From Desulfitobacterium dehalogenans ATCC 51507 (lineage in GTDB: Bacteria > Bacillota > Desulfitobacteriia > Desulfitobacteriales > Desulfitobacteriaceae), in NCBI RefSeq assembly GCF_000243155.2, contig NC_018017.1:1178001-1242000 (forward strand): a stretch of DNA of 64,000 bases, in the 5' to 3' direction. The stretch's first letter is position 1, and the number at the start of each line of letters is the position of its first letter. A program made the position numbers and the translations under genes. The notes under the pieces were generated by a model. That model did not search any database. It was not told where the DNA came from and was given only the letters and a program-made list of their open reading frames with translations. Of the stretch, positions 17,537 to 58,580 are shown one piece after another.

Positions 17537-19663
17537 ATGAGCGTATATGGATGGGCGGGAAAGATCTTAAGAGTCAATTTTACCACAGGCAATATAAATA
17601 CTGAAGATACTAGTAAATATAAAGACTATGTCGGCGGAATGGGAATAGGTTATAAAGTTATTTATGACGAAGTTCCACTGGAAACCCATGCCCATGATGA
17701 AGCTTCCAAAATCGTCATGGCCACAGGCCCGTTAACTGCTACAGGAGTTCCTTGTTCAGGAAGAATGAATATTACTTGCTTATCCTCATGGTCAAAAGGA
17801 TTTTCAATAGTAGATGGACATATGGGTGGACATTTTGCACATGCTTTAAAGTATGCTGGTTATGATGCGATAATATTTGAGGGAAAATCAGCTAAACCCG
17901 TGTATTTAAAGATAGATGATGATAAGGTCTCCATCGAAGATGCCAGCCATTTATGGGGAAAAGGTACCTTCGAAGCCAATAGAATGTTAGTAAAAGAAAA
18001 TGGAGAGAATTTTTGCGCCGCAGTTATAGGTGCGGCAGGAGAAAACTTAGTAAATATGTCAAACCTGATTACTTCGTTTGGGAATTCAGGTGGAGCAGGA
18101 TGTGGAGCTATTTTTGGCTCTAAGAAGGTAAAGGGTATTGCGGTAAGAGGTACTGGAAATATAAAAATTGCCAATGTGAAGGACTTAAGAGAACAAAGTA
18201 ATTATATGTTAAAAGAGTTGATTGGAGGGAACAATAACCATAATGTACCGGCAACTCCACAATCTTGGGCGGAATACTCAGCGCCTTCCGGAAAAAACAG
18301 ATGGTCAGGGGCTTCAGGACTAGGATGGCATAAAGCACCAGGCGGATTTGTTGACATGGGTGAGCAGCCGCCGGGAGATCTAAATAAGATAGGCTTTAGA
18401 GCACATAAAGGACATTTTGACCACGGAGATCTTGCCGATAAATATATGGTTAAAGTCGGAGGATGTTCATCTTGCCCAATCAGATGCTATGCCGAATATG
18501 ATGTCGATCCATTGGCTGATTTTGATTTACCGACAAAGGTTTCTAATACTTGTATGCCTATTATTTCAGTAGGGAATTGGTATGCGGGAAATATCGGAAA
18601 AATGAAACATGTGGATGAAAATGATGGCAGTTTTGTAAACAATGTTACGGGTGCGAGAGCTGTAGATGAATATGGTCTTTGGGATAACTATGGAAATATC
18701 CAAAAGGACTTTGCATATTGCTATAAAAAAGGAATACTAAAGGAAAAGCTCCCGAAAGAGGAATATGATTCCATACCATGGGAACTATTGGAATCTGGTG
18801 ATCCGAGATGGATATGGGAAATAGTAAAGAGAGTAGCATCGAATAAGGGTGAAATAGCAACAATAGGTATGGGAACCTATCTCATGGTAGAAAAATGGGG
18901 ATTAGGAAAAGAATATTTTGATGATCAAGGCCAAGGCAATCTTTGTTACAATGGCTATCCTAACCACCATGGACCTAGTGAAGCAGGGCAAGCAGCGATG
19001 CTTTATAATCTGATGTACAATAGGGACTGTATGGTGCATCATGTTACCTGCATCACATCCTCCGGATCACCCTATGAACTATATAAGGGAATACTTGAAG
19101 AAGAGTTTGGTGAGGGTGTAATAGATCCGCCTAAACACTATACGCCTATGAATAGAAGCAAAGCGAAATTTGCCAAATGGGCTTTTATTGGTAAGCAATG
19201 GCATGATATGGCAACCCTTTGCAACTGGATGTATCCCATGACTTTGTCTCCGGTTAAAGCAAGAGGATATAAAGGGGATTTAGAACTGGATGCCAAATAT
19301 ATGACAGCTGTTACAGGTGAAAAATGGACAAGAGCAGATGTGGATTTAGCCAGTGAGAGAGTTAGCAACATGCTAAGGGTAATAACAGCTCTATCCTATA
19401 ATATTCATTTAGGAAGTAAGAACTTAAGAAAAGATCATGATGAAATTACTAAATGGGTATTTGATAAGGATCCTGACTTTAAAGCCTTTGAAGAAGGAAC
19501 AGACAAATTAGATCGAGATGATATGGAAATTGCACGAGATATGTTCTATGAGGAGATGGGCTGGGATAAGGAAACAGGAATACCTACTAGGAAAACCCTG
19601 GAGAGACTAAGCCTTGGTTATATGGCAGATGATCTGGAAAAGAGAGGGCTGCTGCCAGCCTAG
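17537..19663 (+). CDS. Aldehyde:ferredoxin oxidoreductase family enzyme (YdhV-like)
   Basis: A 708-residue AOR-family protein. N-terminal part MSVYGWAGKILRVNFTTG, GPLTATGVPCSGR and the pterin-binding SGGAGCGAIFGSKKVKGIAVRG are typical; the [4Fe-4S] ligands are Cys310, Cys313 and Cys317 (GGCSSCPIRC) with a fourth probably at Cys505. AOR enzymes bind tungsten or molybdenum as a bis-pterin cofactor and oxidise aldehydes or reduce acids. Length ~700 (longer than the 600-620 of classical AOR) and the neighbouring YdhY-like and YdhW-like genes place it in the YdhV branch, whose substrate is unknown. The enzyme has no export signal although its ferredoxin partner appears to have one. Confidence 0.88.
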   Translation: MSVYGWAGKILRVNFTTGNINTEDTSKYKDYVGGMGIGYKVIYDEVPLETHAHDEASKIVMATGPLTATGVPCSGRMNITCLSSWSKGFSIVDGHMGGHFAHALKYAGYDAIIFEGKSAKPVYLKIDDDKVSIEDASHLWGKGTFEANRMLVKENGENFCAAVIGAAGENLVNMSNLITSFGNSGGAGCGAIFGSKKVKGIAVRGTGNIKIANVKDLREQSNYMLKELIGGNNNHNVPATPQSWAEYSAPSGKNRWSGASGLGWHKAPGGFVDMGEQPPGDLNKIGFRAHKGHFDHGDLADKYMVKVGGCSSCPIRCYAEYDVDPLADFDLPTKVSNTCMPIISVGNWYAGNIGKMKHVDENDGSFVNNVTGARAVDEYGLWDNYGNIQKDFAYCYKKGILKEKLPKEEYDSIPWELLESGDPRWIWEIVKRVASNKGEIATIGMGTYLMVEKWGLGKEYFDDQGQGNLCYNGYPNHHGPSEAGQAAMLYNLMYNRDCMVHHVTCITSSGSPYELYKGILEEEFGEGVIDPPKHYTPMNRSKAKFAKWAFIGKQWHDMATLCNWMYPMTLSPVKARGYKGDLELDAKYMTAVTGEKWTRADVDLASERVSNMLRVITALSYNIHLGSKNLRKDHDEITKWVFDKDPDFKAFEEGTDKLDRDDMEIARDMFYEEMGWDKETGIPTRKTLERLSLGYMADDLEKRGLLPA

Positions 19664-19681
19664 AATTAAGGAGACATAAAG

Positions 19682-20395
19682 ATGTTTAGAAGAAGAAAAC
19701 CAGGATTTGCCGTAGAGATTAACAAAAAAGAATTTGGAAATGAATCCAATGAAATTAATGCGGACAGAGCAGAAGAAGAATTAAGAATGAAGATAGATTT
19801 AGTGGATCTGCTTGATGAAGAAGATTTAGTTGACGCGGAATCCCAGGATATGGAGGAACAAGGTGAGCAAGTAGGTGGATCAAAGTATATACTTTTGGCA
19901 GACTTTATTAGAGAAAGAAGTATTGGCTCCATGCTCACAAGCCAAAAATCCTTAGTTGAAGAGGATGAAACAGTGGAAGAAACCATAGAAAAAATGGGAG
20001 GTGAGGAAGATACTCAAGACATAGTGTCTATAAAAGGTAATGAGGATGTATATTATTATTCAAATCAATATATGAGCGATAACTATGCCATGATTGCTAT
20101 GTTAGTTGAGGAGAAGGATTTATCAAAAACGATAGTTGAAATGGTAAGGTGGAATTGTAAGACTTATCCTTGTCCCACACCTATCTACTATTTTGGTAAA
20201 ACGCCGTATTCTTATAACGATGAGGAAATAGAGATAGCTTTAAATAAGTTGAGAGAGGATGAAAGATACAAAGACATAAAAGAACTTCTTACAGGAAACA
20301 ACATCCGATACTTCTATTCTACTCTTCATATGAGTGAGAAATATGCGAGGGCCTTGGCAGAAAGTACCGAACAAGGAGAATATGGATATAATTAA
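19682..20395 (+). CDS. YdhW-like acidic protein of the AOR cluster
   Basis: A 237-residue protein whose first ~120 residues are very acidic and low in complexity (EEDLVDAESQDMEEQGEQ; EEDETVEETIEKMGGEED), followed by a more ordered domain with YYYSNQYMSDNYAMIAMLVEEKD and WNCKTYPCPTPIYYFGKTPY. The position directly after the YdhV-like gene (19 bases) and the size agree with YdhW of the E. coli ydhYVWXUT operon; I base the name on synteny more than on remembered sequence. Possibly an assembly or adaptor protein for the AOR. No signal peptide. Confidence 0.55.
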   Translation: MFRRRKPGFAVEINKKEFGNESNEINADRAEEELRMKIDLVDLLDEEDLVDAESQDMEEQGEQVGGSKYILLADFIRERSIGSMLTSQKSLVEEDETVEETIEKMGGEEDTQDIVSIKGNEDVYYYSNQYMSDNYAMIAMLVEEKDLSKTIVEMVRWNCKTYPCPTPIYYFGKTPYSYNDEEIEIALNKLREDERYKDIKELLTGNNIRYFYSTLHMSEKYARALAESTEQGEYGYN

Positions 20396-20741: not shown

Positions 20742-20848
20742 GAGGTATAGAGTATAAGAACTTTTTAATTAAGGAAATGGTAAGTAAGTGTTAAAAATCT
20801 AAATGTCTTTCTTCGAGGGCTATGGCAAAGAAGTGGAGGATGATTAAG

Positions 20849-22453
20849 ATGAAAAGCAAAAATGGGAAGTGGATGATTTCAGGTGTACTTATCATGTGTA
20901 TAGCGCTCCTTCTGGCGGGTTGTGGAGGAAGCAATCCGGTAACTACTGGGGGAAAGACTGCCAAAGATGAACTGGTTATTTATATTGGGTATGGGATGAC
21001 CAGTGGCGGTTATGATCCCTGCACCGGTTATGGAATCTATGGAGACGGAATCTTCCATAGTGCCTTATTGAAATTCAATGCCAAAATTGAAGTGGAACCG
21101 GATCTGGCTGTCAATTATACAATTAGTGACGATGGCTTGACTTATACATACACTCTTCGCGACGATGTGAAATTCTCTGATGGCCAGTCTTTAACCGCTG
21201 ACGATGTAGCCTTTACCTATATGACCGCCAAAGCAAGTGGATCCAGTGTGGATTTGACCATGCTGGAAAAGGCGGAAGCCAAAGATAATACGACCGTCGT
21301 CTTTACCTTGAATAAAAAATGGTCAGCATTTGTCTCTACCACCGCCCTGCTGGGAATTGTCCCCAAGCATGCTTATGGACAGGGGTATGGGGACAATCCG
21401 ATTGGGACGGGCCCCTTCAAAGTAGCCCAATTGGATAAAGAACAACAGCTTATCGTCGTCCCCAATGATTATTATTACGGAACCAAGCCTAGCTTTAAGA
21501 AGATCACTATTCTGAACTTGGATGAGGAAGCCGCCTTAGCGGCAGCAAAATCAGGAAACTTAGACGTAGTCATGGTTAATCCTGAGTATGCTTACGAAGA
21601 GGTTTCCGGTATGACTATGGAAAGCATTAAGACTGTGGATAATCGGGGATTTAATTTACCCACCATACCGGAAAGGTCGGATGCCAATGGCAATGTGATC
21701 GGAAATAACGTAACCAGTGATTATGCCGTACGCAAAGCTCTAAACATTGGTATTAATCGGAAGACCATCATCCAGAATGCTCTTAATGGTATAGGGTTTC
21801 CCGCCTATGGCCGAGTGGATGCTTTACCCTGGAACAACACTCCAGAATTTGAGGATGGCCGGGTGGAAGAAGCAAAGGCCCTGTTGGAAGAAGCAGGCTG
21901 GATCGACACCGATGGAGATGGAATACGGGAGAAGGATGGAATCAAGGCTGAGTTTAAAATCACGGGAAGAACAGATGATTTGCAACGCTATAATTTGGCC
22001 GTGGCTTTAAGCGAAGATGCTAAGAAACTGGGAATTAATCTTATGGCTGAAGCCGTGGCCTGGGCCGACTGTAAAGCTTTGACCCGCAATATACCCACCT
22101 GCTGGGGAAGCGGTGACTATAATCCTATCGACCTTTACAATGCTCATTATTCCAAAATGATTGGCGTCGGGACCAGCAATCCTGCTTCCTATTCCAATCC
22201 TAAAGTGGATGAATATATTGAAAAAGCTTTGGCAGCTACCAGCATGGAAGAAGCCATAGAGTATTGGAAACTCTCGCAATGGGATGGCGAGACAGGAACC
22301 AGCGTCGATTATCCCTTCTTATGGATTGTCAATATCGACCATACTTATTTTGTACGGGATGGGTTAAGCCTTGGGGAACAACGGATTCATCCCCATGGAC
22401 ATGGAGTGCCGGTTATCGCCAATATGAATGAGTGGACCTTTGAGCACAATTGA
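20849..22453 (+). CDS. ABC transporter substrate-binding lipoprotein (SBP_bac_5; Nik/Dpp/Opp type)
   Basis: Start ATG 20849 is chosen because gtggagga ends 8 bases before it and the signal peptide begins there; ATG 20822 would add nine residues ahead of the ribosome site. The 534-residue product has a lipoprotein signal with LLLAGC (Cys25) and a full family-5 solute-binding fold (LVIYIGYGMTSGGYDPCTGYG, EPDLAVNYTISDDGLTYTYTLRDDVKFSDGQ, GTGPFKV, YAVRKALNIGINRKTI). This family binds peptides, nickel chelates or opines. A histidine-containing C-terminal segment HPHGHGVP and the following Nik-like genes leave nickel or another metal chelate as an option, without proof. Confidence 0.88.
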   Translation: MKSKNGKWMISGVLIMCIALLLAGCGGSNPVTTGGKTAKDELVIYIGYGMTSGGYDPCTGYGIYGDGIFHSALLKFNAKIEVEPDLAVNYTISDDGLTYTYTLRDDVKFSDGQSLTADDVAFTYMTAKASGSSVDLTMLEKAEAKDNTTVVFTLNKKWSAFVSTTALLGIVPKHAYGQGYGDNPIGTGPFKVAQLDKEQQLIVVPNDYYYGTKPSFKKITILNLDEEAALAAAKSGNLDVVMVNPEYAYEEVSGMTMESIKTVDNRGFNLPTIPERSDANGNVIGNNVTSDYAVRKALNIGINRKTIIQNALNGIGFPAYGRVDALPWNNTPEFEDGRVEEAKALLEEAGWIDTDGDGIREKDGIKAEFKITGRTDDLQRYNLAVALSEDAKKLGINLMAEAVAWADCKALTRNIPTCWGSGDYNPIDLYNAHYSKMIGVGTSNPASYSNPKVDEYIEKALAATSMEEAIEYWKLSQWDGETGTSVDYPFLWIVNIDHTYFVRDGLSLGEQRIHPHGHGVPVIANMNEWTFEHN

Positions 22454-22488
22454 TAAAAAGCCCGCCTAAGGAGTAACATTAAAAATGA

Positions 22489-22758
22489 TGGCTCTAATGC
22501 CCTATAAGCGTAGCTTTGCGTACAGGAGAGAACGATTTTAGCGGAAGGGCGGCTGTGTTAACGAAGCTTTCTTAACATAGGCGAGCCACCGGTTCACATC
22601 AGGTAGTACCCTGGGGTTTGGCTCGACTGTTAAGAAAGCAAGTTGACCAGCCCTGGAGCTAATGAGTGAGCGGATGTACGTAAAGCTACACGACCCGAGC
22701 AACGAGCTTCATTTATCGATGATGCAGCTTAAGATGGAACTCCATGAGTGAAAAATGA
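22489..22758 (+). ncRNA. Structured RNA-like element, copy A (paired with 58215-58580)
   Basis: A 270-base segment between the transporter's binding-protein and permease genes, bordered on both sides by aaaaatga (22481-22488 and 22751-22758, the right one counted within the element). It contains nested complementary arms: gtagctttgcgtac (22510-22523) with gtacgtaaagctac (22676-22689); gttaac with gttgac; gctttcttaaca with tgttaagaaagc; and cgagcca with tggctcg around a loop that includes ggttcacat and ggggttt. The same arms, with compensating changes, recur at 58215-58580, which is strong evidence for a conserved folded RNA. No protein frame is credible here. Could be a HEARO/omega-RNA-like element lacking its nuclease gene; family not confirmed. 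Confidence 0.7.
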
Positions 22759-22778
22759 AGAGACTTGAGGAAGCATAG

Positions 22779-23777
22779 ATGAGAGAGAGAAACAAGGTCT
22801 TACAGAAACTAATATGGCCATCCTTCCTGCGCATGATCACTTTGCTCATTGCTATGAGTGTCATTGCTTTTGCCTTGGTTATGGCTTCACCTGTTGATCC
22901 CATTGATGCATTTGTGGGCTCAGAGTCCAATGTCTCACAGGAACAAAGGGACAATGTGGCTCGTTACTGGGGGCTGGATAAGCCCCCGGTGGAGCGCTTT
23001 TTAACTTGGGCAGGCAATGTACTCCAGGGGGATATGGGAATTTCCACCACCTATCGATTACCTGTCACCCAAGTGATAGGGGAACGGGTGAAAGCATCCT
23101 TAGCCTTAATGGGAGTAGCTTGGGTTCTCTCCGGGATATTGGGCTTTGTCCTTGGTATCCTGGCCGGAGTGAACCGGGGGAAGCTGATGGACCGCTTCAT
23201 AAAAACCTTTTGTCTGGCCTTATCCTCAGCTCCGACATTTTGGATTGGGCTGTTGATACTGATGGTTTTCGCCGTGAATCTGCAGTGGTTTCCTATTGGC
23301 CTGGCGGCTCCCATCGGCAGGCTTGCCTCAGAGGTAACCCTTTGGGAACGCATACATCATCTGATTTTACCTGCTTTTACACTAAGTATTATAGGAGTGG
23401 CGAATATCGCTCTTCATACCCGTCAGAAAATGATCGACGTTCTCGAGTCAGAGTATGTGCTCTTTGCCAAAGCAAGGGGAGAATCTACCTATAGTATTGT
23501 TAAACGACATGGAATTCGCAATATTATGCTTCCGGCTATTACCCTGCAATTTGCCTCTTTCAGTGAATTGTTTGGGGGTTCTGTCTTAGCTGAACAAGTC
23601 TTTACCTATCCGGGCTTGGGCAATGCGGTGACTCAAGCAGGGCTTCGTGGAGATGTGCCTCTATTTTTGGGGATTGCTTTGTTCAGTGCAGTCTTCGTCT
23701 TCGCAGGGAATTTCATTGCCAACCTGATTTATGGCATCGTCGATCCCCACATAAAGGAGGCGAATCCCCATGGATAA
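22779..23777 (+). CDS. ABC transporter permease (NikB/DppB type)
   Basis: A 332-residue membrane protein of the BPD_transp_1 family with six predicted helices. The N-terminal helix carries the usual MRMITLLIAMSVIAFALVMASPVDP-like pattern and the cytoplasmic EAA loop is visible as EYVLFAKARGESTYSIVKRHGIRN (around 227-250). It pairs with the next permease to form the import channel. Separated from the binding-protein gene by the 325-base structured element, yet overlapping the next gene by 8 bases, so the operon appears to have been split by an insertion. Confidence 0.9.
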   Translation: MRERNKVLQKLIWPSFLRMITLLIAMSVIAFALVMASPVDPIDAFVGSESNVSQEQRDNVARYWGLDKPPVERFLTWAGNVLQGDMGISTTYRLPVTQVIGERVKASLALMGVAWVLSGILGFVLGILAGVNRGKLMDRFIKTFCLALSSAPTFWIGLLILMVFAVNLQWFPIGLAAPIGRLASEVTLWERIHHLILPAFTLSIIGVANIALHTRQKMIDVLESEYVLFAKARGESTYSIVKRHGIRNIMLPAITLQFASFSELFGGSVLAEQVFTYPGLGNAVTQAGLRGDVPLFLGIALFSAVFVFAGNFIANLIYGIVDPHIKEANPHG

Positions 23778-27000: not shown

Positions 27001-28680
27001 TTATTCTAAATTTTGAATAGGAATACCCACGATAAAGCTGCTTCCACCGCCGAATTGGCTATCTACCTTAATCCAACCCTGATGCAGTTCAACCAATTCT
27101 TTGGCAAGAGAGAGTCCTAATCCGGTGCCTCCATATTTTCGAGAAGCGGAGCTATCTGCTTGGGTAAACTTTTCAAAGATGTATTTCTGATCCTCCTCTT
27201 TTATCCCAATGCCATTATCATTGACCCTGAGAATGATTTCATTTGTGAGAGAATTATATTCAACAAGAATCTCAATTCTTCCTCCCGAGTCAGTGAATTT
27301 AACCGCATTACCGGCGAGATTCTCGATAATTCTGCGAATTTTTTCAGGATCCGCTTTGGTTAAAGGAACATGGGGATCCACATGAACACTTAAATCAATG
27401 CCTTTGCTTTTAGCTAAGGGAGTAATGACACTTTCTACTAAAGCGATAATATCCTGCATATCGACGATTTCAAGATTCAATTGTGCCTTGCCGGCTTCGA
27501 TTTTTGCCAGATCCAAGATATTATTGATCAGTCGGAGCAGGATTTGACTATTGGTCTGTATCTCCTCAAGGATATGAAGATTATTCTCATCCTGGGGCGG
27601 CAAATCCACTAACATAAGTTCGGTAAAGGCAATAATAGAGGTGAGAGGAGTTCGCAGTTCGTGACTCATCACGGCCAAAAACTCAGATTTATAGATATTG
27701 GTTTCGTTAAGGCGTAGGTTCATTTGCTCCAGTTCGTATTGGTGTTTCTTTAAGATGGAGTTAGCCTTTTCTAATTCATCCGTCCGTTGCTCGACTTTCA
27801 ATTCCAGGTTGCTGTAGAGATCCTTCAGCTGTTCCGTCATATTCTGAAAATGATTGGTCAGCCTGCGGATTTCACCTCTGGCCTTTAGGTCTTTTAGATT
27901 AACATCCCATTGGCCTGCCCCCACTTTGGAAACAGCCTGCTCTAATTCCCCAAGGGAGCTTGTAACCATTTTAGTCACTAATAAATAAATACAGGTAATG
28001 CACACCAAAATAAGCACCAAGGAAAAGAAAGCATTGCTCCTTTGACTACCATGCATATTCTCCAGATAAATATCCATGGGCATGGTCAAACTCAGTGCTC
28101 CCGCAAAATCTCCGATTTTCAAACCTTCTTTAGCATAGCCGGAGATATCGATTTCACCTTTCGGCTCTCCATGACAATCCAAACAGAACTTATCAATGAC
28201 CAGGGGAGTCATATAACGGAAAACAGGCTTGCCATCCATATCTTCTATAGCCCAATATTCAGTGGTCGTAGGAAGTTTTTTAAGATGGATGACTCCCAGA
28301 ATCTCAAATTCATCCGGCGCATTCAGTATATTTCGATAGCTAATATTTGTAGGTTTCAATTTATAATCTGTTTCGGCAGCCAGCATGGCACCTACCCCCA
28401 TAGCCACTGTCGAGCAACTGAGAAATTTATATTCTAAATTACCTTCGAGATCATAATTGATTTTACGTTGGTTAATGGCCATGAATTCCCAAAGGGCTTT
28501 TTGCTGTTGGGTGATAATCTGGGCCTTTTCAAGCATCTCTCGTTCAGCCTGCTTCATCTCTTGATGATAATCCCAAAAATATTTGGCACCCATAACCATA
28601 ATAATTACAATCACAGTAGCCAGCATAAAGCTGAAGGTTAAGTTATCGGGAGTCCTGATTTTTTTCTTGATGCCGCTCAT
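27001..28680 (-). CDS. Sensor histidine kinase with DUF3365 heme-motif sensor domain
   Basis: A 559-residue membrane kinase. Order: TM1 (about 15-33), an extracytoplasmic DUF3365 (Tll0287-like) domain with FCLDCHGEP, a CxxCH heme c attachment motif (Cys166-His170), TM2 (about 217-240), HAMP (about 240-295), coiled coil, HisKA with MSHELRTPL (His340) and HATPase_c with N-box and GTGLGLSLA. The heme motif and context (respiratory enzymes, cytochrome c maturation genes) suggest redox or gas sensing at the outer face. Probably controls torD-dms and/or the nap region through the regulator at 26283. Confidence 0.9.
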   Translation of the reverse strand: MSGIKKKIRTPDNLTFSFMLATVIVIIMVMGAKYFWDYHQEMKQAEREMLEKAQIITQQQKALWEFMAINQRKINYDLEGNLEYKFLSCSTVAMGVGAMLAAETDYKLKPTNISYRNILNAPDEFEILGVIHLKKLPTTTEYWAIEDMDGKPVFRYMTPLVIDKFCLDCHGEPKGEIDISGYAKEGLKIGDFAGALSLTMPMDIYLENMHGSQRSNAFFSLVLILVCITCIYLLVTKMVTSSLGELEQAVSKVGAGQWDVNLKDLKARGEIRRLTNHFQNMTEQLKDLYSNLELKVEQRTDELEKANSILKKHQYELEQMNLRLNETNIYKSEFLAVMSHELRTPLTSIIAFTELMLVDLPPQDENNLHILEEIQTNSQILLRLINNILDLAKIEAGKAQLNLEIVDMQDIIALVESVITPLAKSKGIDLSVHVDPHVPLTKADPEKIRRIIENLAGNAVKFTDSGGRIEILVEYNSLTNEIILRVNDNGIGIKEEDQKYIFEKFTQADSSASRKYGGTGLGLSLAKELVELHQGWIKVDSQFGGGSSFIVGIPIQNLE

Positions 28681-29726: not shown

Positions 29727-32303
29727 ATGGTAAATTTATTAGATAAGATTAATGAATTGAATCTAAGCCGCAGAAGCTTTCTTAAAGCCAGCACCGCCGC
29801 CGCTGCCGCCCTTTCTTTGGGAGGCTGCGCGAACACCTTGACCACGGCCAGCCCTGATCAGATGGCCAATGGGGAAGGTGAGTGGAGAACAGCGGCCTGT
29901 TGGCATAACTGTGGCAGCCGATGTTTAAATAAGGCTTTGGTCGTTGACGGTGTGGTTGTCCGCCAAAAAACAGACGACACTCATCCGGACAGTCCTGATT
30001 TTCCCCAGCAAAGAGCTTGCCTCCGTGGGCGTTCCCAAAGACAACAGGTATTTGGCGCCGATCGTTTGAAATACCCAATGCGCAGGAAGAATTGGGCACC
30101 AGGAGGCGGGCAAAAAGAACTCCGTGGTCAAGATGAATGGGTAAGAATTTCTTGGGAGGAAGCCTTTGAGTCGATTGCCGGTGAGCTGAAAAGGATTAAA
30201 GAAGAGCATGGCAATCGTGCTATCTTTGCCGATGGCGGAGATGCTTCCAAAGTGCTGGCCTTGTATGGCGGCTATGTAAGCAATTGGGGCACCACATCCC
30301 GCGGAACCTGGCATGGAACCAATGGCCCTGTGGGTATTGGACCTTCCGCTGTTGAAGGGATCAATGACCGGATTGATATGAGAAACTGCGAAACCGTGAT
30401 CATGTTCAGCATGAATCCGGCTTGGAGCTCGGCGGGCAACCCAGCCTACAATTTCATGCAGGTTAAAAAGGCCGGTGCGGAGTTCATTGCCGTAGACCCA
30501 TACTACAATGATACCTATGCTTTACTGGAAGCGGATTGGATTCCCTCACGCCCTTCGGAAGATACCGCCCTGCTTCTGGGAGTTGCCCATACTCTGATTG
30601 TGGAAGATGATCCTGCTACCAATCCCCTGATTGACTGGGAGTACCTGAAGAATAATACCATCGGCTTTGATGCCGACAGCATGCCGGAAGGTGCCGATCC
30701 TAAGGATAATTTCAAAGATTATGTCCTGGGAACCTATGATGGCACACCTAAAAATGCCGAATGGGCCTCTGAAATCTGTGGAGTGGAACCCCAACGCATT
30801 CGTTACCTGGCCAGAGCCATGAGTAAAAACAAGAAAGTAGCCATTATCTTTGGCTGGGCGTCAGCAAGAACTCAGAATGCCGATAGCCTTCCCCAACTGG
30901 TGATGACCATCGGAGCCATGACCGGGCATATGGGAAAATCCGGGCATATGTGCGGAGTAAGCTGCCACACAGGCTCCAGCAATGGCGGACCGGGCTTGGT
31001 GACCGCAGGTAAAGATGGACTGCCTTCCGTGGAGAACCCTGTGGACGACAGCCTCAATCATACGGAAATGTGGCGGGCCATCGTCGACGGCAAATATAAT
31101 TTTACAGGTCAAATGAAGTGGAAAAAGGGAGAAATGCGCGACATTGACATCCGCGCTATTTACCACGATACCAGTGCCCGTCTGCAAACTGCCGACGGTA
31201 TGACCAAAGGGATCGAAGCCCACCGTAAGGTGGAGCTGGTGGTAAGCCATGCTCAATTCTTAACCACCAACGCTAAATATTCAGACTTCGTGCTGCCTCT
31301 GACTACAGAATGGGAAAAACTTGGCGGGTTTGTCACCGGCAACCGGGAAATTTTGATTATGTATTCCCAAATTACCGAAAAAATGTACGAATGTGAAAGC
31401 GACCAATGGATTGCCAAGGAGTTGGGAAAACGTTTAGGGGTAGATGTCAGCAAAGCCTTCCCCTTTGACGAAAAACAGCAATTCTTTAATATGATTGCGG
31501 GAAGCAAAGTGACCTTACCCGATGGCAAGACAAAAGCCCCCCTGGTCACCATCACGGCCGCCGATATTGCCGAATGGGGAGTGGAAGGTGAGCCCCAGGA
31601 AGGTCAAATTACTCTTAAAGAATTTAAAGAGCAAGGCCTCTATCAAGTCGAAAGAAAACCGGGAGATAACTACGGCTTCATTGCTTATAAGAAATTCAGA
31701 GACGATCCGGCAGCCAATCCGCTGGGCACCGAAAGCGGCAAGATGGAGATTTATTCCCGTGCTCTTGCCCAGAGAATCAACAATATGGGATATAGCAAGA
31801 TCGAGCCGATTCCCACCTATATTCCACCGGTTGAAGGCTATCAGGCCACTTTCAGTGATTGGAAGAGCAAGGCCAAAGGAGACTATCCTTTCCAAGTGAT
31901 TAATCCTCACTATCTGCGCCGCTCCCACTCCGTCTTTGATAATGTCCAGTGGCTCAGAGAAACCTGGCCTAATCCTGTCTTCATCAATGCTCAGGATGCC
32001 AAAGCTAAAGGAATTATGGATGGAGATACCGTCTTGTTAACCAGCCAACATGGCAAGGTCCTGCGCACTGCTTTGGTTACCGAGCGCTTTATGCCGGGTG
32101 TCATCGGCCTGCCTCATGGTTCTTGGGTGGACATGGACGAGAAAACCGGTATTGATAAGGGCGGAGCAGACAACATTCTCTGCGGTCCGGTATCTACGGG
32201 ACAAGGTGCTTCCGGCTGGAATACCTGTATCGTTCAGCTTGAGAAATATGCTGGAGCTTCATTAATCCCAGATGTAGAAAAACCCCAACGGATCATTTTT
32301 TAG
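29727..32303 (+). CDS. DmsA-type molybdopterin oxidoreductase, catalytic subunit 1
   Basis: An 858-residue enzyme of the DMSO reductase family. N-terminus has a Tat motif (LSRRSFLKA, 13-21) followed by a lipobox-like LSLGGC (Cys34), so it is probably exported folded and lipid-anchored. [4Fe-4S] ligands are Cys58, Cys62, Cys66 and Cys98; the likely molybdenum ligand is Ser191 in WGTTSRGTW, aligned with the Ser of DmsA. It would reduce an S- or N-oxide or related acceptor, fed by the DmsB and DmsC subunits encoded next. A second, clearly related copy lies at 33749. True substrate unknown. Confidence 0.9.
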   Translation: MVNLLDKINELNLSRRSFLKASTAAAAALSLGGCANTLTTASPDQMANGEGEWRTAACWHNCGSRCLNKALVVDGVVVRQKTDDTHPDSPDFPQQRACLRGRSQRQQVFGADRLKYPMRRKNWAPGGGQKELRGQDEWVRISWEEAFESIAGELKRIKEEHGNRAIFADGGDASKVLALYGGYVSNWGTTSRGTWHGTNGPVGIGPSAVEGINDRIDMRNCETVIMFSMNPAWSSAGNPAYNFMQVKKAGAEFIAVDPYYNDTYALLEADWIPSRPSEDTALLLGVAHTLIVEDDPATNPLIDWEYLKNNTIGFDADSMPEGADPKDNFKDYVLGTYDGTPKNAEWASEICGVEPQRIRYLARAMSKNKKVAIIFGWASARTQNADSLPQLVMTIGAMTGHMGKSGHMCGVSCHTGSSNGGPGLVTAGKDGLPSVENPVDDSLNHTEMWRAIVDGKYNFTGQMKWKKGEMRDIDIRAIYHDTSARLQTADGMTKGIEAHRKVELVVSHAQFLTTNAKYSDFVLPLTTEWEKLGGFVTGNREILIMYSQITEKMYECESDQWIAKELGKRLGVDVSKAFPFDEKQQFFNMIAGSKVTLPDGKTKAPLVTITAADIAEWGVEGEPQEGQITLKEFKEQGLYQVERKPGDNYGFIAYKKFRDDPAANPLGTESGKMEIYSRALAQRINNMGYSKIEPIPTYIPPVEGYQATFSDWKSKAKGDYPFQVINPHYLRRSHSVFDNVQWLRETWPNPVFINAQDAKAKGIMDGDTVLLTSQHGKVLRTALVTERFMPGVIGLPHGSWVDMDEKTGIDKGGADNILCGPVSTGQGASGWNTCIVQLEKYAGASLIPDVEKPQRIIF

Positions 32304-33748: not shown

Positions 33749-36346
33749 ATGACAAAGTTCTTTGATAAGATCAATGAAATGACAATCAGCCGCAGAAACT
33801 TCATCAAAGCCAGCACCGCTGCTGCTGCCAGCTTATCTTTGGTGGGCTGTGGCAATACTCTGACCACGACGAATGCGGGTCAGGCAGCCAATGAAGAAGG
33901 AACATGGATTACGGCAGCTTGCTGGCATAACTGCGGCGGACGCTGCCTGAACAAGGCCCAGGTAGTGGACGGTGTTGTTGTCCGTCAAAAGACCGATGAT
34001 ACCCATCCAGACAGCCCGGATTATCCACAACAAAGGGGCTGCGCCAGAGGGAGATCTCAGCGCCAGCAGATTTTTGGTGCCGATCGCTTAAGATACCCCA
34101 TGAAACGCAAGAATTGGAACCCAGGAGACGGCGGCAAGAGAGAGCTCCGGGGTAAAGATGAGTGGGTAAGAATTTCCTGGGAAGAAGCCCTGGATCATAT
34201 TGCCGCCGAACTAAAACGTGTTAAAGAAACCTATGGCAATAAAGCTATTCTGGCGAAAGCCACAGGTCCGGCTCTTAATGCCTATGGCGGGGCTATGACC
34301 TACTGGGGATGTACTTCAGATGGAGCTTGGCCAAAACCCCAGCAATTTATGAACGGCGGCCGTTCCAAAGGGTCTAACGACCGCCTGGATCTGAGAAACT
34401 CCAAACTCATTGTTTTGTGGGGCGCTAATCCCGTATGGAGCAGCGGCGGTAATCCTGCCTACAATTTTAAACAGGCCAAAGAAGCAGGTGCAAAGTTCAT
34501 TATCGTTGACCCATTCTATAACGATACAGCCCAGCTTCTTGCTGATCAATGGATTCCCGTAAGACCTGGAACAGATACGGCTTTATTATTGGGAATGGCC
34601 CACTATATGATCACCAATAACCTCCATGATCAGGAGTTCCTCGATAAATACTGTGTGGGCTTTGATGCCGAGCATATGCCGGAAGGTGCTGATCCGAAAG
34701 AGAACTTTAAGGATTATGTTCTGGGAACCTATGATGGTACACCTAAAACTCCGGAATGGGCTTCCGAGCATTGTGGAACCGATCCGGATCTTATCCGCTC
34801 TTTCGCTCATGAGGTAGCTGTCACGAAACCCATGACCTTCTCCAGTTCATCGGCAGCGGCCAGAACCTCCGTTGGTGAACAATTCTGCCAAGCCTTCCTG
34901 ACCGTGGGTTGGATGACAGGAAATGTGGGGAAACCAGGGGCCAGCGTGTGCACTAATAATCGTCATAATACTCAAAGCTATGGCGGGCCGGCTCTAGTCA
35001 AAGCAGGAACTGCCGGCGGCAAATCTCCGGCTAATCCTCTCTATAAAGAGCCAACCTTCCCAGGACCAGATCCTTTTAAAACAGACTGGCATGGCATGGT
35101 CATCGACGAAGCCTGGGATGCAGTGCTCAATGGGGAGTACACTGCAGGAGTGAGAGGCAAACAGCCCTGCGATATCCGCATGATCTGGAATATCGGTTCG
35201 GGCAATGTACTCAATCAGAATACCGATATCATGAAAGGAATCGAAGCTTTCCGCAAAGTTGAATTTGTGGTAACATCAGCTCATTTCCTTACCGCCACGG
35301 CCCAATATGCAGATATCGTGCTTCCGGCTACCACCGAGTGGGAAAGACTGGGCGGTTTCTTAACGGGTAACCCGGAAATGATCATTTTCTACAGCCAAAT
35401 CACCCAACCCATGTTTGAGGCGAAAGATGATGATTGGATGTATGCCGAGATCGGCAAGCGGCTGGGCTTGGATCCTGCTGATTTTGATCCCCTTTCCCCT
35501 GAGCAGAAGCTGTTCAATATGGTGGCTGGCTGCACTGTGATGAAGGAAGACGGATCAGGCTATGAGAAGCTGGTGACCATTACCGCTGAGGATATCGCCG
35601 CCCTGGGAGTGAAAGGAACTCCCCAGGAAGGCCGCATCAGCTATAAAGAATTTAAAGAACAAGGAATCTATCAGGTGCCCCGTTCCCCTGGAGACCAATA
35701 CACCTATATTGACTATAAAGACTTCATTGAGGACCCTGAAAAGAACCCACTGGGCACCGAAAGCGGCAAATTCCAAATCCACAGCCAAGGTTTAGCCGAT
35801 ACGATCAATGCTTATGGTTGGAACACCTTAGCTCCCATCCCTAAGTATCAATATGTTACTGAAGGCTATGAAGAAACCTTCTCCAACTTTGAGAAGAAAG
35901 AGAAGGGCGGCTATCCGCTCCAGCTCACCACAATCCACTATGCACGCCGCAGCCATTCAACTTTGGATAATATCTCCTGGCTCAGAGAGGCGTTCCAAAA
36001 CAGACTCTATATTCATCCTGCCGATGCTGCCGCCAGAGGAATCGCTAAAAATGATATCGTGAAAATCAGCAGCCGCCATGGCCAAGTGATCCGGCCTGTG
36101 TATATCACGGAGAGAATCATGCCGGGAACTCTTACTTTAGGTCAGGGCGCTTGGGCAGAAGTGGACGATGAAACCGGTATCTGTAAGGCAGGCGCCACCA
36201 ATGTACTGAATGGCGGACTTCCTACCGGACAAGGGGTGCAGGCATACAACACATGTAATGTTCAAGTCGAGAAGTACGACAGCAAACTGCAAACCGACTA
36301 TTTATGGCCCAAACGGATTGTTGCTGCACAAGGGGGGAATAAATAA
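33749..36346 (+). CDS. DmsA-type molybdopterin oxidoreductase, catalytic subunit 2
   Basis: An 865-residue paralogue of the enzyme at 29727, with the same architecture: Tat motif (ISRRNFIKA, 13-21), lipobox-like LSLVGC (Cys34), [4Fe-4S] ligands Cys58, Cys62, Cys66 and Cys98, and a probable Ser190 molybdenum ligand in WGCTSDGAW. The first ~125 residues are nearly identical in pattern to copy 1, while the region after the Mo ligand and the substrate-funnel segments differ, suggesting a changed substrate. Its stop shares its last base with the next start (36346). Confidence 0.9.
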   Translation: MTKFFDKINEMTISRRNFIKASTAAAASLSLVGCGNTLTTTNAGQAANEEGTWITAACWHNCGGRCLNKAQVVDGVVVRQKTDDTHPDSPDYPQQRGCARGRSQRQQIFGADRLRYPMKRKNWNPGDGGKRELRGKDEWVRISWEEALDHIAAELKRVKETYGNKAILAKATGPALNAYGGAMTYWGCTSDGAWPKPQQFMNGGRSKGSNDRLDLRNSKLIVLWGANPVWSSGGNPAYNFKQAKEAGAKFIIVDPFYNDTAQLLADQWIPVRPGTDTALLLGMAHYMITNNLHDQEFLDKYCVGFDAEHMPEGADPKENFKDYVLGTYDGTPKTPEWASEHCGTDPDLIRSFAHEVAVTKPMTFSSSSAAARTSVGEQFCQAFLTVGWMTGNVGKPGASVCTNNRHNTQSYGGPALVKAGTAGGKSPANPLYKEPTFPGPDPFKTDWHGMVIDEAWDAVLNGEYTAGVRGKQPCDIRMIWNIGSGNVLNQNTDIMKGIEAFRKVEFVVTSAHFLTATAQYADIVLPATTEWERLGGFLTGNPEMIIFYSQITQPMFEAKDDDWMYAEIGKRLGLDPADFDPLSPEQKLFNMVAGCTVMKEDGSGYEKLVTITAEDIAALGVKGTPQEGRISYKEFKEQGIYQVPRSPGDQYTYIDYKDFIEDPEKNPLGTESGKFQIHSQGLADTINAYGWNTLAPIPKYQYVTEGYEETFSNFEKKEKGGYPLQLTTIHYARRSHSTLDNISWLREAFQNRLYIHPADAAARGIAKNDIVKISSRHGQVIRPVYITERIMPGTLTLGQGAWAEVDDETGICKAGATNVLNGGLPTGQGVQAYNTCNVQVEKYDSKLQTDYLWPKRIVAAQGGNK

Positions 36347-39423: not shown

Positions 39424-41082
39424 ATGAAGGATAGTTTAACACATCGGTTTATGCTATTTACCACCTTTGTGGTGGTATCTATTATGCTCATCCATTTTAC
39501 TTGGGATTATCGCACGCAAAGGGCTCAAGCCACTTTAGAGATGCATGAAAAGGCTCAAGTTATCACAAAACAGCTCATTGCTACTCGTGAAGTCATAGCG
39601 AAGAATCAGGACCGTATTAATTATGATTCTCAAGGAAATTTTGAGTTTAAGCATCTTAATCCGGCGGCGATTGGCATGCAAATCGGTGACATTTTTGGGC
39701 AGCTGACCAATTACTCCATCAAACAGACGCGGATTGATTATCGAGCCAGCTGCAATGCGCCGGATGCTTTTGAAGCACAAGGATTGCTAAGGTTCGGCCA
39801 GGAGCCACATCTTGCCGAAATCTGGGGGGAAGATGTAGTAGGAGGAGAGCGGGTTTTTCGCTATATGGTCCCCTTGCATATGAAGGAAGAATGCCTCTCC
39901 TGTCATGGCCAACCGATTGGAGATATAGATATCACTGGACATTTCAAAGAAGGGTACAAAGCCGAGGATTTAGGCGGGGCCATCAGTCTGATTATGCCCA
40001 TGGATATTTTCCTCCAAGGGATGAAGGTCGATGTCTATCGCCATTTATCCTTCTCCCTTTTACTTATCGGTGTGATTGTAATCTCAATGTACTTGCTTGT
40101 CACCCGTCTTGTCACCCGCTCTTTAGGGGAGCTAAAGATTGCTACTGCTCAAGTGGGGCAAGGAAATTTCGATATTGACCTCAATTGTATTAAAGCACAA
40201 GGAGAAATAAAGGAACTGGCTCAGCATATTCAAGAGATGGCCAATCAACTGAAGGATTTATATCAAAATTTAGAGGCCAAGGTAGAAAAAAGAACCCATC
40301 AATTGGAATTGGTCAATGAAGACTTAAGGATTAAGCAGGATGAACTGGAAGCCGCCAATATTAAACTGAATGAGATCAATACCTATAAATCGGAGTTTCT
40401 GGCGATTATGAGTCATGAATTAAGGACTCCCTTGACATCCGTCATGGCTTTTACGGACCTTCTCCTTCAAGAGCTTCCCAAGGAATTTATACAAGAACGA
40501 CAGAACCTTAAATACATAAAAGCCAACAGCCAGAACCTCTTAAAATTGATTAATAATATACTTGATCTTGCCAAGATCGAAGCCGGTCGCCTGGAATTAA
40601 AATTAGAATATGTAGACATGGCCGATGTTCTGGGAGCCATTGACAGTGTAGTAGCGCCTTTAGCAAAGAAGAAGGGGATTGTCTGGGAAATAAACCTTGC
40701 CCCTGAAGTTTCCTTACTTCGTGCGGATCCGGAGAAACTTCGCCGGGTTATTGAGAACTTAGCGGGGAATGCGATTAAATTCACACCTTCTGGAGGGCGT
40801 GTAGAAATTCAGGTGACTAACACTCCGAGGGAGAATTGGATCATCATTCGCGTCATTGATACAGGAATTGGCATCCCTCCTGAAGAGCAGGAAGAGATCT
40901 TTGAACGATTCACCCAGGTAGATAGTTCCAACTCAAGAAAATATGGAGGAACCGGTCTGGGCTTAGCCCTGGCTAAGGAATTAGTAACTCTTCACAAAGG
41001 AGAACTATGGGTCGAGAGCGAAATAAATAAAGGCAGTACTTTTGTGGTCTATTTACCGAAGGATCCCGATAAAGTAGACTAG
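39424..41082 (+). CDS. Sensor histidine kinase with DUF3365 heme-motif sensor domain, copy 2
   Basis: A 552-residue paralogue of the kinase at 27001. TM1 about 8-26, extracytoplasmic DUF3365 domain with ECLSCHGQP (CxxCH at Cys157-His161), TM2 about 205-228, HAMP, coiled coil, HisKA MSHELRTPLTSVMAF and HATPase_c with ENLAGNAIKF and GTGLGLALA. The paired response regulator gene follows 92 bases later. Likely a c-type-heme redox sensor governing the surrounding respiratory genes. Confidence 0.9.
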   Translation: MKDSLTHRFMLFTTFVVVSIMLIHFTWDYRTQRAQATLEMHEKAQVITKQLIATREVIAKNQDRINYDSQGNFEFKHLNPAAIGMQIGDIFGQLTNYSIKQTRIDYRASCNAPDAFEAQGLLRFGQEPHLAEIWGEDVVGGERVFRYMVPLHMKEECLSCHGQPIGDIDITGHFKEGYKAEDLGGAISLIMPMDIFLQGMKVDVYRHLSFSLLLIGVIVISMYLLVTRLVTRSLGELKIATAQVGQGNFDIDLNCIKAQGEIKELAQHIQEMANQLKDLYQNLEAKVEKRTHQLELVNEDLRIKQDELEAANIKLNEINTYKSEFLAIMSHELRTPLTSVMAFTDLLLQELPKEFIQERQNLKYIKANSQNLLKLINNILDLAKIEAGRLELKLEYVDMADVLGAIDSVVAPLAKKKGIVWEINLAPEVSLLRADPEKLRRVIENLAGNAIKFTPSGGRVEIQVTNTPRENWIIIRVIDTGIGIPPEEQEEIFERFTQVDSSNSRKYGGTGLGLALAKELVTLHKGELWVESEINKGSTFVVYLPKDPDKVD

Positions 41083-57923: not shown

Positions 57924-58130
57924 AGGATTTTGCTTTACACCGTTCGCTCAATAAGCTGCGCGGACAAAACTAACGCTCAAGCCCTTCGCTCCGTCGGGTG
58001 CCCAGCCAAATCGCTCCTGCTCAATGGCTGGTTGGAAACGTCCTGTTTCCAACCCGACTCCGCTGCAGTCTTTTCGCGAAGTTTTGTTCCCGCTCGCTTA
58101 AATTCGCTCTCTTTTGTAAATCAAAATCCT
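57924..58130 (+). ncRNA. Large nested palindromic domain of unknown type
   Basis: Within the cbiL-cbiF gap the arms pair in nested order: aggattttg-c-tttac (57924-57938) with gtaaa-t-caaaatcct (58116-58130); taagc (57952-57956) with gctta (58096-58100); acaaaact (57964-57971) with agttttgt (58080-58087); gtcgggt (57993-57999) with acccgac (58052-58058); ccagcca (58002-58008) with tggctgg (58025-58031); and a perfect hairpin ggttggaaac (58030-58039) / gtttccaacc (58045-58054). The last ones overlap slightly and may compete. Too ordered to be chance; candidate structured RNA or a mobile palindromic element. No protein frame is convincing. Not found elsewhere in the window. Confidence 0.55.
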
Positions 58131-58214: not shown

Positions 58215-58580
58215 GTAGCTTTACGCACAAAAGCGAACGGATTTCACTGTGTATAAGGCAGCTAAGGCTTCTGCTTCGCTTCACTCACCATAAGCCAAGC
58301 TTTCTTTAAGCGGAGGGGCGGTCGGGTCAACGAGGCTTTCCTAACATAGCGTAGCCACGGTTCACATGTAGAAAACAGCGGGGTTTGGCGTCGAAAGTGT
58401 CCGGTGGACAGTTTCGCTCAAGGCGGCACTCCCCAAAGCATACGCATCCGCCGCAGATGCTGTTAAGAAAGCGAGTTGACCAGCCCTGGAGCTATGGAGT
58501 ACGTGAGTCTCCGATCAAGAAACCTTCCGGTGGAAGGTTTCAGGAGATCACGCCCGAAGGTGCGTTGTGCGTAAAGCTAC
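58215..58580 (+). ncRNA. Structured RNA-like element, copy B (paired with 22489-22758)
   Basis: Same nested plan as copy A: closing stem gtagctttacgcac (58215-58228) with gtgcgtaaagctac (58567-58580), a perfect 14 bp; then ggtcaac with gttgacc; gctttcctaaca with tgttaagaaagc; and gcca with tggc around a loop with ggttcacat and ggggttt. Compared with A, T-A pairs are replaced by C-G in the closing stem and U-G by C-G in the next, which preserves pairing. Two copy-specific hairpins are inserted, one with gaaaccttcc/ggaaggtttc near 58519-58541. It lies inside the cbi operon just before cbiF. Confidence 0.7.

Follow-up and report, generated by a model that had tools for sequence, protein, structure and literature searches.

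A dispersed family of ~180-base elements keeps a rod-shaped fold through paired mutations in Desulfitobacterium dehalogenans and its relatives

What lies between the genes for a solute-binding protein and an ABC permease in Desulfitobacterium dehalogenans ATCC 51507, and is it one of many? The window, that is, the whole stretch of DNA that was analyzed, comprises 64,000 nucleotides (NC_018017.1, positions 1,178,001 to 1,242,000). The initial annotation, made from sequence alone, had assigned positions 22489-22758 to copy A of a dispersed structured RNA family, with a copy B in a distant intergenic region, nested stems common to both, and base-pair covariation between them. Our analysis resolved the locus of copy A into the following parts.

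22510..22689, plus strand: rod 1 copy A, a ~180-nt rod from closing stem to apical loop
22510..22524, plus strand: 5' arm of the closing stem, GTAGCTTTGCGTACA, pairing with 22675-22689
22675..22689, plus strand: 3' arm of the closing stem, supported by covariation over 31 copies
22566..22577, plus strand: 5' arm of the inner stem, GCTTTCTTAACA, pairing with 22628-22639
22628..22639, plus strand: 3' arm of the inner stem, TGTTAAGAAAGC, supported by covariation over 31 copies
22585..22622, plus strand: apical GCCA/TGGC stem with the conserved loop GGTTCACATCAGGTAnTACCCnGnGGTTT, supported by family-wide conservation
22468..22741, plus strand: approximate inserted unit (leader, rod, tail); the orthologous site in a congener is empty
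20822..22453, plus strand: upstream neighbor, oligopeptide/nickel-type solute-binding protein (SBP_bac_5; Pfam PF00496, E 1e-67)
22779..23777, plus strand: downstream neighbor, ABC permease (BPD_transp_1; Pfam PF00528, E 2.8e-39)

Both copies were found at the places given for them, and every stem claimed for copy A (closing, next, 12-bp inner, and GCCA/TGGC) was present. The closing arms read GTAGCTTTGCGTAC/GTACGTAAAGCTAC, and 99.4% of the closing-stem cells were paired over 31 copies, among which the inner-stem helix showed two-sided changes at 8 of 13 pairs. In the apical part, GCCA (22585-22588) pairs with TGGC (22619-22622). Folding of 22460-22778 gave a minimum free energy 5.8 SD below that of dinucleotide shuffles, none of 100 shuffles being as low. 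Covariance model R1 scored copy A at 189.4 bits (E 1.1e-42), a value that is not independent because copy A was itself among the rows used to build the model. The initial limits held only in part: 22489-22758 is slightly wide for the rod (22510-22689), and the unit judged from the empty site spans about 22468-22741.

How many such rods are there? When the host genome (4,321,753 bp, one contig) was searched at the DNA level, 40 strong matches with 79 to 100% identity were scored, and a covariance model from 31 copies found at least 70 places in this genome (E ≤ 7.3e-11), a minimum reached with 150 of 1181 candidates scored. At the order level, matches occurred in 53 of 74 genomes and 16 of 22 genera; at the class level, model R2 found them in 61 of 83 genomes and 19 of 27 genera. 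The taxa with matches include Desulfosporosinus, Heliobacterium, and Heliorestis species and relatives. Five genomes of Heliobacteria held 13 to 29 copies each, a complete Heliobacteria genome held 20, and the complete genomes G036, G017, and G006 gave about 100, 60, and 24 matches, counts that take in some weak matches and some of the second rod described below. Copy number ranged from 0 to ~100 between related genomes, and several complete genomes of the class showed no rods at the thresholds used. Outside the class, 1 to 5 copies were present in 3 of ~380 further genomes of the phylum. Some of the counts in this survey are lower bounds. The covariance-model search found many copies in both the host genome and its relatives. 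With 70 places here and class-wide matches, the possibility that no further copies exist is refuted, and the family is larger than the initial annotation had claimed.

Is it the fold that has been kept? In the 31-copy alignment, two-sided change was seen at 23 of 49 pairs, against a shuffled mean of 4.2, and 98.4% of cells were paired, compared to 31 to 39% in slid controls. An alignment of 47 matches from many genera showed two-sided change at 47 of 49 pairs, with 95.5% of cells paired compared to 30 to 45% when one strand was slid. Because this second alignment was fitted to the model, its structure counts lean toward the model, and weight is therefore carried by a set of 27 Heliobacteria copies that were found with the model but aligned without it (MAFFT). 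Folded afresh, this set gave nearly the same nested rod, with 49 pairs, 26 of them changed on both sides. These data show a family whose ~180-base members each form a single long rod, the fold being kept through paired mutations; the covariation reported between copies A and B extends to 31 copies and many genera.

The wobble pairs were strongly biased, with 61 G-U versus 8 A-C in rod 1 and 24 versus 8 in the Heliobacteria rods. As G-U stands far above A-C, one strand is the constrained one, and we conclude that one conserved fold, on one strand, is under strong constraint. The constrained form is likely to be a folded single strand of RNA rather than of single-stranded DNA, an inference made without transcript data. 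The term functional RNA, used at first, holds to that extent only, since it rests on the constraint of one strand.

Conservation was uneven along the rod. The apical part (GCC-A-nGGUUCACnU...GAGGUUUGGC) was nearly invariant; from Desulfitobacterium to Heliobacteria, no other part of the family is as conserved as the apical stem-loop. The sequence of the closing stem varied freely between lineages, with complementarity kept in nearly every copy, and the non-complementary internal loops were conserved across the class. The G+C content of the rods was 0.44 to 0.72, mostly above 0.5. By eye, symmetrical GC-GNA-GC internal loops appear to recur in the rods.

Could quasipalindrome correction (template switching between the arms), together with conversion among copies, account for most of the covariation, rather than selection on the fold? 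Support for this comes from one orthologous site, shared by three Heliobacteria genomes (L202, L211, and L203, 1501-1675), where the rod has diverged by 22% versus 5 to 15% for the flanks, with 10 two-sided changes, 1 to 2 one-sided changes, and 1 lost pair. Conversion, replacement, or arm-templated correction may have produced this pattern, which is not fully explained. However, both strands are subject to quasipalindrome correction, so that the excess of G-U over A-C would be lost under it, as would the non-complementary internal loops, yet these are conserved class-wide. We consider this explanation very unlikely.

Copy B lies within the corrin biosynthesis operon and has a partner on the opposite strand.

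58215..58580, plus strand: rod 1 copy B, which carries three additional hairpin inserts (core matched by model R1; closing arms read directly)
57924..58129, minus strand: rod 2, head-to-head with rod 1 of copy B (minus-strand match of model R1, E 1.3e-6)

Model R1 matched the core of copy B (58305-58502) with 82.5 bits (E 9.2e-18), and the closing arms are 58215-58228 and 58567-58580. The three optional hairpin inserts occupy fixed places in rod 1 and recur across copies, copy B included. One optional hairpin near the rod tip, CGAAAGTGTCCGGTGGACAGTTTCGCTCAAGGCGGCA...CATCCGCCGCAGATG, was seen at the same place in 58215-58580, L168, L173, L176, and the 1153697 locus. Another hairpin motif, TTTTCATCCTCTGCTGGTGC...GCAGCGGCATG, stood upstream and downstream of rod 1 (loci in G000; L048, L053); it was present in Desulfitobacterium and Desulfosporosinus-type genomes and absent from Heliobacteria.

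Rod 2 beside copy B is closed by the stem AGGATTTTGCTTT/AAATCAAAATCCT. About half of the copies in this genome have a rod 2 located 35 to 270 nt upstream on the opposite strand, with the closing stem AGGATTTTGCTTT/AAAGCAAAATCCT. Rod 2 was found alone too, and head-to-head pairs recur in G036 and G017. In Desulfosporosinus-type genomes, rod 2 scored 79 to 89 bits by the rod 1 model and 119 to 131 bits by the broader model R2, whose training set included those rod 2 rows. Since both models detect rod 2, rods 1 and 2 are homologous and arranged head-to-head. The wobble pairs of rod 2 (22 G-U versus 6 A-C) favored the minus-strand form. The dispersed structured RNA family of the initial annotation is thus supported, although this second, oppositely oriented homologous rod and the mobility described below had been missed.

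Does the rod regulate the operon in which it lies? Copies A and B, both of which lie in sense between operon genes, would fit a role in regulating the neighboring operon in cis, as a riboswitch, attenuator, or antitermination element. Against it, the downstream gene was on either strand about equally often, so that rod orientation to genes is not fixed, and the neighboring genes were of unrelated function, with no consistent neighborhood across copies. Moreover, Heliobacteria rods often lay just past a stop codon and in antisense (14 antisense versus 6 sense, not significant). A role as cis-regulator is therefore very improbable. Rods in this genome lay between genes, the only exceptions being a few short ORFs that are spurious. 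Divergent gene pairs rarely flanked a rod (3 of the 58 classified rods in G000 and none of 36 in G001), gene context being taken from crude ORF calls. No conserved promoter or terminator adjoining the rods was recognized, and a replichore strand bias was not significant, being matched or exceeded in 58 of 300 shuffles.

Database searches agreed with the statement that no known riboswitch is recognizable. Over the window, the sole Rfam match was a cobalamin riboswitch (RF00174, 55482-55660, 123.3 bits), located ahead of the corrin biosynthesis operon. No plausible match to the rod was found at E ≤ 5, and the only match at E ≤ 1 was a SAM riboswitch located outside the rod. None of the Rfam families (HEARO, ROOL, GOLLD, group II intron parts, riboswitches, 6S, and all others) gave a covariance-model match to the rod, whether gathering or relaxed thresholds were applied. 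The phage and plasmid collections searched contained no rod match; a single viral-contig pattern match and two unrelated MAG matches lacked covariance-model support. No paper joining these taxa with such repeats was found in the open-access literature searched. The family is probably undescribed and missing from Rfam release 15.

We then asked whether the rods move. The site of copy A measures 298 nt here versus 36 nt in G001; the unit is absent from the congener's site, where gain and loss cannot be separated. This genome alone carries a 300-nt unit at 1400387, and because G001 and G002 are both empty at the same point, the insertion here is derived. This site, the cleanest empty one, showed no clear target duplication, with at most 3 to 5 ambiguous bases. 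The ligA site carries neither rod in G002, rod 2 in G001, and both rods here. At the site of copy B, G001 has kept rod 2 and retains only the last ~25 bases of rod 1, a loss of rod 1 in that genome. The element thus inserts as a discrete unit, as shown by one polarized case.

Turnover is slow, since 23 of 37 G001 copies examined were at sites that are occupied by a copy here too. For eight shared sites whose rods are intact, the orthologue ranked 1, 5, 10, 13, 15, 18, 20, and 29 of 40 in similarity, and the apical-loop types differed between orthologous copies. Because orthologues are often not nearest relatives and their apical loops differ, copies exchange sequence. Tandem copies were of both kinds, discrete units and segmental duplications, and rods are arrayed with a homologous rod both in tandem and head-to-head. 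In L338, two tandem rods (172-344 and 429-601) read identically with equal scores, and the spacer does not repeat the flanking sequence; this could be a very recent insertion of a discrete unit beside an old copy.

Which machinery might move the rods? Neither an autonomous partner nor a helper gene turned up next to them; this includes low-copy genomes, where a partial inspection of flanks showed only housekeeping neighbors. A candidate 7-kb autonomous element flanked by rods in G007 was rejected, as the rods are two tandem pairs in separate intergenic regions within an ordinary operon. A RAYT/IS200-type helper is disfavored: Y1_Tnp does not track copy number, being absent from G006, G017, and G029 despite 24, 63, and 14 to 19 rod matches, and abundant in G055, which gave no rod match. 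This genome has three Y1_Tnp matches, two of which contain a stop and two adjacent ones of which resemble pieces of one gene. No insertion sequence was seen beside rods (flanks only; whole-genome IS ends were outside the comparison). No conserved terminal sequence was found, the ends being complementary in each copy and differing in sequence between lineages.

These data bear on a DNA-level alternative, a MITE/REPIN-like element whose transposase recognizes folded single-stranded DNA (HUH/Y1) or inverted ends, the fold being a DNA hairpin. In its favor are the perfectly complementary ends, the palindromic overall shape, and the discrete insertions; and since single-stranded DNA also tolerates G-T wobble, such an element remains compatible with the strand bias. 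Against it, only the complementarity of the ends is conserved between lineages, Y1_Tnp genes do not track the rods, the cleanest site lacks a clear target duplication, and the conserved internal and apical loops are not needed for end recognition. REPs are 20 to 40 bp long with an unpaired GTAG or CGTC tag (PMC3733652, PMC3116915). Rods resemble REPs and REPINs in being palindromic, intergenic, and paired as copies, some with GTAG at one end, whereas the rod is ~180 nt long and its GTAG lies in the paired closing stem in Desulfitobacterium and is absent in Heliobacteria; unlike in REPIN/RAYT systems, Y1 transposases do not follow them. Bacterial MITEs as defined in PMC3049150 are likewise non-coding, multicopy, and highly base-paired with complementary ends, but the rods are mostly G+C-rich rather than AT-rich, their end sequence is not conserved, target duplication was not clear (one site), and no matching insertion sequence was found beside them. 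The rods therefore fail the features that define REPINs and several of those of MITEs, and a DNA-level element, while not excluded, is unlikely.

The explanation that we favor, with moderate confidence, is a dispersed mobile rod-shaped element, a non-autonomous parasite or commensal constrained as a folded single strand, most likely RNA; its transcription and copying are inferred. An unidentified trans-acting factor would recognize the folded RNA (or cDNA) by its apical GGUUCAC...GAGGUUUGGC loop and internal loops, and the element would be re-inserted between genes, mainly where no promoter is disrupted, while recombination among copies would hold the family coherent. The mode of action would be like that of bcr1 or BOX repeats, with a fold far older and more tightly constrained. 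Several observations weigh against this reading. No transcript has been seen (no expression data), no adjoining promoter or terminator was recognized, and no helper gene was found adjoining the rods. The 23 of 37 shared sites imply slow insertion, strong long-term constraint is unusual in a pure parasite, and the 10 two-sided versus 1 to 2 one-sided changes at one Heliobacteria site poorly fit stepwise compensation.

Alternatively, the cell may use many rods as a host-functional multicopy RNA (regulatory, scaffold, or protein-sequestering), past mobility having only spread them. In favor of this possibility, which is not excluded, are the retention of rods throughout the class, the extremely conserved apical loop, the maintenance of pairing at shared sites, the G001 sites common with this genome, and absence from phage and plasmid collections. 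However, copy number varies from 0 to ~100 between relatives, several complete genomes of the class have no match, and neither neighborhood nor orientation is consistent, so that we consider this reading the less likely one. A bolder version of the mobile-element reading is also conceivable: a SINE-like, ~180-nt folded noncoding RNA that would spread via an RNA intermediate with another element's machinery, reach ~100 copies per genome, replace copies at old sites, and persist class-wide. Transcription and reverse transcription are postulated here, and no decisive insertion hallmark of reverse transcription was found at the insertion sites examined.

Among known repeats, the nearest kinds are, by analogy, the bcr and BOX/RUP/SPRITE repeats, and the rods behave like them as far as tested: they have tens of intergenic non-coding copies, presence or absence at orthologous sites, and conserved structure, transcription being inferred. 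The bcr1/bcr repeats of the Bacillus cereus group are ~150-nt intergenic repeats in tens of copies with a predicted conserved RNA structure and mobile-element features, often transcribed inside UTRs or operons (PMC2267715, PMC3446304); the founding paper, as cited in PMC3446304, describes bcr1 in its title as specific to the B. cereus group. The rods share with bcr1 the intergenic repeat, copy-number, structure, and mobility features, but they span a class with occasional copies beyond it and show two-sided change at 47 of 49 pairs. BOX, RUP, and SPRITE of Streptococcus pneumoniae transpose slowly, are judged parasitic, are over-represented between convergent genes, and can be transcribed (PMC3049150). 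Like them, the rods are modular, mosaic, structured, and intergenic, with variable inserts. BOX is built as a modular A-Bn-C, whereas the element here has one nested rod, to which hairpins may be added, and a partner placed head-to-head; the streptococcal repeats are limited to few streptococci, and the likeness is drawn from form and behavior alone. Within the literature searched, none of the known repeats compared spans a bacterial class or covaries at nearly every pair.

If our reading is right, the rods would be among the bacterial structured non-coding families with the most copies per genome, and they occur in organisms that serve as subjects for research on dehalogenation, sulfate reduction, and phototrophy. 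They would offer a testable ancient repeat in which selection keeps the fold and not the sequence, and they raise the questions of the copying agent, of exchange at fixed sites, and of a possible cellular use.

Other features of the window were observed. An aldehyde:ferredoxin oxidoreductase gene is directly followed by a 237-aa ORF (19682-20395; whole region 17537-20395), for which no Pfam match was found at E ≤ 1e-5. Two paralogous molybdopterin oxidoreductase genes (29727-32303 and 33749-36346) lie ~4.0 kb apart, with DNA 72 to 75% identical over stretches, and likely stem from an old tandem duplication. A 109-nt inverted repeat (28068-28176 and 39901-40009, 71% complementary) lies inside oppositely oriented ORFs, 27001-28680 (minus) and 39424-41082 (plus), the first of which has a histidine-kinase-like sequence in its final part; this repeat likely reflects paralogous genes rather than a mobile element.
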